Source: an uncultured Nitrososphaerales archaeon (GTDB lineage Archaea > Thermoproteota > Nitrososphaeria > Nitrososphaerales > JACAEJ01). Taken from it: a stretch of 34,261 nt of DNA. Positions 22,941 to 30,519 of this stretch are shown here, piece after piece (position 1 is the stretch's first letter; each line of letters starts with the position of its first letter). The position numbers and the translations under genes are program-made. The stretch is from the NCBI GenBank assembly GCA_938091495.1, contig CALLJF010000035.1:1-34261 (forward strand), read 5' to 3'. The notes beneath the pieces were generated by a model. That model ran no database searches. It had not been told where the DNA came from and saw only the letters and a list, made by a program, of their open reading frames with translations.

Positions 22941-24074
22941 CTAATCTCTTAGGATAAATTTGTCCATTATTCTCTTCGCTTTTTCTCTTTTCCTTTGATG
23001 ATCAGAAAGAAAATCTTTGACTCTCTTTACCAATTTTTGCTTATGCTCACCACAAAGTAAGCAACCATCTCTACAACTTTTATAAGTACTTGCAAGAGAT
23101 TTATCATCCCAGTCGAACAAGAAATATTCGTAAAAGTATACAGGGCATATGTCTGGATTCCCGCCTTTCTCTCTCTGCTCCTTTACTGTTGGTAACCCTC
23201 CAGTGAAGGCATTCTTTACCTTTCTCTCAGCTTGCTCTAATGAATCTGTTGTAAATATTGCAGTCTCTGGTTCACTTGCGCTCATCTTACCACTTTTTGT
23301 AAGGCTTGGGAAGAACTTTGAGTGAATCTCAGCAGGTTTGTAAAAGCCTAATTTTGGAGCAACATCTCTAGCAACTCTCCAATAGACTGATTGATCTATG
23401 GCAGCAGGTATCAAGCATGGAATGTTCTTACCTTTTAATACTGATGGGAAGAAGCAAGGTGCAGCCTGTATAGAAGGGAAGAAGATCATACCGATATTTG
23501 TGCTTGAATTAAAGCCAAAGGCAGCCTTTACTGTCGAGAAGGTCACATGCTTTGCAAATTGAGTTGCTATCTTATATAGAGTTCTCATGTATTCAGTGTC
23601 TAGAAAGATAAAGGTCTTTTTTGGATCAAAACCTAAAGCAATAACATCCAAAGCATTATCATAAGCATATTTGATAGTTTCATCAAGACTCATTTCAGGA
23701 TTATGTAAAAATTTTTCATCGTCTGTCATCTGAAAGTATAGCTCAGCATCAAACTTGTCTTGTAGATACTTTGTGAAGATCCATGGTATTAGATGGCCTA
23801 GATGAGTTTGCCCAGAAGGGCCTCTACCTGTGTATAAGAAGAATTTCTCATTATTTTCATATTTATCCAAAATCCAGTCAAAATCTCTATGAGAGAAGAA
23901 TATCTTCCTTTTTAACAATGGATGCAGTTCATTTGTATGCTTCTTTATTCTCTCAAGAAGATCATCATTTATTGGCATGGTACCAAATTCTCTTATTAAT
24001 TTATCATAATCAACTTCTCCTCTAACTTCCCAAGGAGTAACTATGAACTCTCTCTCGTTTGCCATATTTATCAT
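22941..24074 (-). CDS. trpS: Tryptophanyl-tRNA synthetase
   Basis: YTGRGPSGQTHLGHLIPW, CLIPAAIDQSVYWRVARD and SGKMSASEP. Confidence 0.97.
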   Translation of the reverse strand: MINMANEREFIVTPWEVRGEVDYDKLIREFGTMPINDDLLERIKKHTNELHPLLKRKIFFSHRDFDWILDKYENNEKFFLYTGRGPSGQTHLGHLIPWIFTKYLQDKFDAELYFQMTDDEKFLHNPEMSLDETIKYAYDNALDVIALGFDPKKTFIFLDTEYMRTLYKIATQFAKHVTFSTVKAAFGFNSSTNIGMIFFPSIQAAPCFFPSVLKGKNIPCLIPAAIDQSVYWRVARDVAPKLGFYKPAEIHSKFFPSLTKSGKMSASEPETAIFTTDSLEQAERKVKNAFTGGLPTVKEQREKGGNPDICPVYFYEYFLFDWDDKSLASTYKSCRDGCLLCGEHKQKLVKRVKDFLSDHQRKREKAKRIMDKFILRD

Positions 24075-30330: not shown

Positions 30331-30519
30331 GGGGTCGTCGTCTAGCATGGTTCCCTTTGAAACCCTAGAACTGCCTAAACTAGGATACTCTTGGGAAGGT
30401 ACTTCTAGTGAGGTAGGACGGCAGGCTCCAGAGATGTCTACAGGTTCGCTGACAATTGGATGATGTGCTTCTGGAGCGGGGGAACCTGTAGGTCGTGGGT
30501 TCAAATCCCACCGACCCCA
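30331..30519 (+). tRNA. tRNA-Trp (CCA), with a 52-nt intron at 37/38 (30432-30483) and an extra D-loop insertion of about 60 nt (approx. 30352-30413)
   Basis: Acceptor GGGGTCG/CGACCCC; D stem GTCT/GGAC; anticodon stem GCAGG/CCTGT; loop CTCCAG|A. BHB fits: H5 CTCC with H3 GGGG, bulges AG|A and GA|A. Confidence 0.9.

Follow-up and report, generated by a model that had tools for sequence, protein, structure and literature searches.

The window (the whole stretch of 34,261 nucleotides that was analysed) was found to contain a tRNA-Trp(CCA) gene at positions 30331 to 30519 of the + strand, and all parts of the gene described below lie on the same strand. The acceptor, T and anticodon stems of this gene were found to pair, with the T-arm at 30495-30511, the 3′ CCA was not encoded, and the top-scoring match in all family members was homologous. 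The gene contained two inserts, which are most likely the reason that neither ARAGORN nor Rfam made a call for tRNA-Trp at 30331-30519; a Rfam search of the anticodon-loop intron also gave no match to a small-RNA family. A tryptophanyl-tRNA synthetase gene was present about 6 kb away at 22944-24074 of the - strand, adjoined by the genes of the PheRS alpha and beta subunits. The contig was placed in Nitrososphaeria, close to Ca. Methylarchaceae: the methionine aminopeptidase encoded near the tRNA gene shared 98% identity with its counterpart in Nitrososphaeria archaeon JZ2_bin.220247, 88% with that in DRTY6_bin.138 and 74% with that in Candidatus Methylarchaceae HK01M. The host genome assembly comprised 1.39 Mb in 59 contigs, and its contig 21 contained a fibrillarin gene (PF01269, 5e-93) adjoining a Nop gene (PF01798, 3e-77). 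L7Ae, a universal archaeal ribosomal protein, was assumed to be present in the host.

One of the two inserts, which the preliminary description did not mention, was found in the D-loop at about 30351 to 30410 (approximate borders) by comparison with the relatives L009-L014. Its length was about 22 nt in four of the relatives, and the insert in the tRNA-Trp of the window exceeded this by about 40 nt. An extra hairpin of about 40 nt (CTAGAA...TTCTAG) was observed within this insert in the genomes G000, G002 and G004 (L009 and L010 compared with L011-L014); it is an insertion inside an intron and was patchy even within one genus. A further insert of about 20-25 nt, like AGTGTCTAC...GATCACCGC, was observed between the D-stem and the anticodon stem in L150-L161 of families f2 and f10.

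The anticodon stem contained GCAGG (30421-30425) paired with CCTGT (30485-30489), and since these two halves pair, C30485 is C39. The anticodon loop was found to contain CTCCAG at positions 32-37 (30426 to 30431), in which C34 is 30428. A 52-nt intron (30432 to 30483) was present at the canonical position 37/38, bordered by G37 at 30431 and A38 at 30484, borders that follow both from the pairing of the anticodon stem and from aligning 124 further tRNA-Trp introns with this one. The GGGG nucleotides at 30478 to 30481 can pair with CUCC at 30426-30429 and form the 3′ strand of the central helix of a bulge-helix-bulge, with four of four pairs; among 70 introns, this helix contained 4/4 pairs in 29 and 3/4 pairs in 38.

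Two segments of the intron were complementary to the exons beside it. The first (guide 1), CTACAGGTTC at 30438 to 30447, was found on direct reading to be exactly the 10-bp perfect complement of GAACCTGTAG (30482-30491) that the preliminary description had claimed. It was followed by the presence of CTGA at 30449 to 30452 as box D′, and the fifth base upstream of this box, G30444, pairs with C30485, so that the N+5 position falls on C39 as had been stated. The box C′ nucleotides ATGATGT, described beforehand as C′-like, sit at 30460 to 30466, and six or more of the seven consensus positions of this box were matched in 53 of 70 non-redundant introns. The intron of the window was thus found to contain the inner D′ (CUGA) and C′ (UGAUGA-like) boxes of an archaeal box C/D sRNA, which together make a C′/D′ (kink-turn/kink-loop) motif with a 7-nt connector. 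The second segment (guide 2), TCTGGAGC at 30470 to 30477, was again the exact 8-bp complement of GCTCCAGA (30425-30432) that had been claimed, with G30474 paired to C30428 (C34), and a D+5 count from 30479 does lead to C34. When the intron was subjected to 20,000 dinucleotide shuffles, none of the shuffled sequences could pair over 10 bp with the 3′ exon side, 102 could pair over 8 bp with the anticodon side, and none could do both. The intron at 37/38 is likely to be a box C/D-type methylation guide, and good confidence is placed in that reading.

The tRNA-Trp genes of the class and the phylum were collected by a pattern that fixed exon bases only, and not the guide boxes, or by DNA similarity. 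Parsing covered 125 genes whose stems were consistent, and 84 introns less than 80% alike made up the non-redundant set. Conservation of guide and target pairing in related genomes, a test named in advance, was examined in the 125 introns; the pairing was found to be conserved and the guide was not refuted. No tRNA-Trp was recovered with either pattern in near-complete genomes of family f8 (G013, G027, G057 and others), in which the intron length or the exon sequence must differ from the patterns used, and the gene was likewise missed by these patterns in some other families. A set of very short f22 introns with a C box and a 34 guide only was rejected as an artefact of a second CTCCAG inside the intron, the true f22 introns being 59 nt long (L063, L064).

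The guide to C39 was examined in two ways, with guides sought by pairing alone and boxes sought by motif alone. The pairing-only search gave 34 introns with at least seven Watson-Crick pairs to the C39 region, of which 21 contained an exact CTGA at N+5 and 9 a 3-of-4 match; no D′ match was found in these guides at offsets 3, 4, 6, 7 and 8, and offset 2 contained ten 3-of-4 matches. The motif-only search gave good C39 pairing at offset 5 in 27 of the 70 non-redundant introns, followed by 4/70 at offset 2 and 0/70 at offsets 3, 4, 6, 7, 8 and 9. When exons were swapped between lineages, the mean pairing was 4.11 with the own exon and 3.58 (sd 0.08) with swapped exons, and for the 28 retained C39 guides it was 7.34 and 6.02, respectively; none of 20,000 permutations reached the own value in either case, in a procedure that treats the introns reduced at 80% as independent, which is true only in part. 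The guide and target pairs were found to differ by family, with AGGTTC/GAACCT in the window, GGGTCA/TGACCC in L150 and GGGTAT/ATACCC in L111, and at the level of sequence these pairs show repeated compensation directly. By these comparisons the C39 guide and its exon target are covarying between lineages. The C39 half of the dual guide to C34 and C39 that had been proposed stood firmly, with its exact D′ at N+5, its covariation and its register, and it is very probable that the intron guides 2′-O-methylation of C39.

The complementary segments could also be elements of pre-tRNA folding or splicing, or duplicated relics of the anticodon arm, with no methylation involved, since the intron and exon strands pair strongly by themselves. 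Such a role does not explain why CTGA should be held, from lineage to lineage, at exactly five bases from the base that pairs with C39, or why a C′ box should be kept, and a pairing that breaks the anticodon arm would be disruptive for the tRNA. Moreover, no such pairing was found in short introns of this gene: six tRNA-Trp introns of other lineages (L213-L218) were without boxes and without either guide, which means that splicing itself needs no guides. A purely structural role is hence considered very improbable beside that of a methylation guide.

Of the 70 non-redundant introns with inner boxes, 66 were found to contain a C34 guide with at least six Watson-Crick pairs to its target. No box D was found at N+5 of this guide in the window, in which 30479-30482 is occupied by GGGG, and an exact CTGA was present at N+5 in just one of 72 introns. 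The best match to a terminal C box in the intron of the window was GAGATGT, with five of seven positions, and matches of at least 6/7 were found in 2 of 70 introns against 1.1 expected, which is the level of chance. The weak points admitted earlier, namely GGGG in place of the terminal D and a degenerate C, were therefore real by the box counts in relatives, and the missing outer boxes are a trait of the whole group and not as a local defect. The claim of a dual guide was thus borne out for C34 as a conserved pairing (66/70), whereas its placement at N+5 of a box D was not (CTGA in 1/72). A terminal C box rebuilt across the circular junction was considered and rejected as not general. A shifted D box located 1-13 bases from the partner of C34 was also rejected, since exact CTGA was enriched at no offset. 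CTGN was common at offset 3 from the partner of C34, because the conserved GGAGC nucleotides precede it, and would point at A36. The place at which a box D would be expected (30479-30482) overlaps the strand GGGG/GGAG, the 3′ side of the bulge-helix-bulge central helix and the partner of CUCC at positions 32-35, and the splice motif would seem to have displaced box D in these compact introns.

The absence of both terminal boxes, together with a strand of the splice helix in the place of box D, would also fit an intron in which the D′/C′ module alone works, on C39, while TGGAGC is kept for splicing or folding and C34 is methylated otherwise or never. The pairing at C34 was conserved over 8-12 bp, which is well past the splice helix of 4 bp, and the short introns L213-L218 splice without the TGGAGC segment. 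In family f10 the C39 guide was lost, whereas the D′ box CTGA, the C′ box ATGATGT and the C34 guide were kept (11 non-redundant introns), an arrangement that is hard to understand unless the protein-binding motif formed by these boxes also serves the C34 arm. Such a half guide is accordingly judged unlikely, though less so than a purely structural role. The retention of D′ and C′ in f10, although its C39 guide is gone, points to a C34 arm that relies on the inner D′/C′ motif. The intron rather probably guides 2′-O-methylation of C34 also, without a recognisable D box.

The relatives contained further arrangements of the boxes and guides. The intron L171 (genome G113, family f18) was found to contain all four boxes, with GTGATGA as C, CTGA as D′, GTGATGA as C′ and CTGA as D; it sits on a contig of 1,153 bp, for which mis-binning is possible. 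Several members of family f19 had lost the C34 arm. With four boxes in L171, the C39 arm lost in f10 and the C34 arm lost in several f19 members, the intron of the window could be read as an ancestral four-box guide that is losing its function in this lineage. In the family of the window (f1; L001, L009-L014), however, the spacer bases varied, whereas the guides and the D′ and C′ boxes either did not change or changed with compensation, and guide 1 was found to contain ten Watson-Crick pairs. Decay is for these reasons quite improbable, and a guide still at work is preferred. In L152-L168 of f10, the segment before D′ was no longer complementary to the exon and was observed to pair with the C34 guide of its own intron, with up to 9 bp, for example in L164 and L167; this pairing is suggestive only, as the shuffle frequencies of single sequences were 0.02-0.5. 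The idea that the D′ guide of f10 now serves a different RNA target was rejected, since the distance from the motif to CTGA varies between genera.

The pairing of the guides fitted the precursor better than the spliced tRNA. In 26 retained C39 guides, the pairing scores of the bases D′-3 and D′-2 were 0.94 and 0.96 with the two final bases of the intron, whereas the same bases scored 0.48 and 0.42 against the spliced anticodon loop and 0.28 against a random intron base. The C34 guide fitted the intron bases i1 and i2 (0.96, 0.76) better than it fitted the spliced tRNA at positions 38 and 39 (0.85, 0.22). As the pairing spans the intron-exon junction, the guided methylation would have to precede splicing. 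The guide pairing within one molecule competes with the fold of the tRNA. Since both guide duplexes occupy bases that belong to the anticodon arm and to the splice motif, one fold is required for guiding and another for splicing. Constrained folds gave -70.5 and -73.5 kcal/mol for the guide-paired forms and -65.4 kcal/mol for the cloverleaf with the splice motif; these energies lie 3 to 8 kcal/mol apart, in an energy model too coarse to name the dominant form, and are consistent with a precursor of two states.

What we infer of protein binding, chemistry, order of events and the function of guide 2 without a recognisable D box is the following. L7Ae would bind the inner D′/C′ motif (30449-30466) and recruit Nop5 and fibrillarin. 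The carrier of the guides may be the unspliced precursor itself, or the intron after its excision, probably as a circle, which would then act on a different precursor. Guide 1 would pair across the junction, from the two final bases of the intron through A38 and C39 onwards, and direct the 2′-O-methyl group to C39 by the N+5 rule, whereas guide 2 would pair with the anticodon loop for methylation of C34. The methylated precursor would then refold to the bulge-helix-bulge and be spliced. A further and tentative proposal, which we regard as rather unlikely as a whole yet a little less so than the half guide, is that the intron of the Nitrososphaeria and related Thermoproteota is a reduced and in effect circularly permuted guide. 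The D′/C′ kink-turn would be its sole true C/D motif, the splice motif having taken the place of the outer pair, and the C34 guide would act free of a D box, through circularisation or a single L7Ae site; the C39 arm of f10 might have become an anti-guide (TTCAAACTC with GAGTTTGGA in L164) that locks or releases the methylation of C34.

Replacement of a missing intron guide by stand-alone C34 sRNAs gave no general rule in a pattern search of 61 genomes, in which most of the 16 matches were like coding sequence and the few good candidates belonged to lineages f33, f45 and f50. Candidate stand-alone C/D sRNAs with a CCA-type anticodon guide and CTGA at N+5 of C34 were observed in L230 (G417), L233 (G330) and L236 (G337), lineages in which no guide-bearing tRNA-Trp intron was found. 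Archaeal stand-alone C/D sRNAs for the tRNA wobble base, represented in the phylum by the tRNA-Trp C34 candidates L233 (G330), with the guide GGGTCTGGAGCA before CTGA, and L230 (G417), resemble the intron of the window in having a guide to position 34 upstream of a D-type box; they differ in their canonical boxes, in guides that fit the spliced anticodon loop and in not being borne by an intron. The tRNA-Met intron of Nanoarchaeum equitans is likewise a C/D-like RNA in a tRNA intron, with a guide role only suggested (PMC3491384), but it belongs to tRNA-Met and not to tRNA-Trp.

The closest known system is the tRNA-Trp intron guide established for archaea (PMC4090602, PMC7994747, PMC7714728). 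In Haloferax volcanii this intron is 103 nt long and is a box C/D guide for Cm34 and Um39, with euryarchaeal homologues including Pyrococcus sR50 (PMC2584109, PMC7994747, PMC4090602). Guides of this type have been reported from at least 29 archaea, with both C/D and C′/D′ boxes, action before splicing is already argued for Haloferax, and the in vitro data favour guiding in trans (PMC2584109). In both Haloferax and Thermococcus the tRNA-Trp intron is circular once excised (PMC7714728, PMC9014305), and the Haloferax intron is dispensable for growth (PMC7714728). No description of a tRNA-Trp intron guide for Nitrososphaeria was found among the open papers searched, which did not cover the 29-species list. 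The intron of the window and the Haloferax type share the same tRNA, the intron position 37/38 and the target positions 34 and 39 (PMC7714728, PMC4090602, PMC2584109), the order of a 39 guide before the inner D′ and a 34 guide after the inner C′, and a pairing that takes in intron bases and so precedes splicing. They differ in length (52 nt against 103 nt), in the terminal C and D boxes, which are not recognisable in the window whereas Haloferax is described with both pairs (PMC2584109), in the target at position 39, which is C in the window and U in Haloferax, and in the archaeal class. The known case of an intron as guide would thereby extend, on strong comparative evidence, into an archaeal class for which no published description was found. 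Natural test cases are present with four boxes (L171), with the inner two (the window), with the 34 guide only (f10) and with the 39 guide only (several f19 members), and should C34 methylation persist where the boxes are depleted, the rule that every guide needs an adjacent D box of its own would fail there. By sequence comparison, the intron of the window is best described as a compact and box-depleted variant of the known tRNA-Trp intron guide, with the same predicted task and the same anatomy and with the outer boxes absent.
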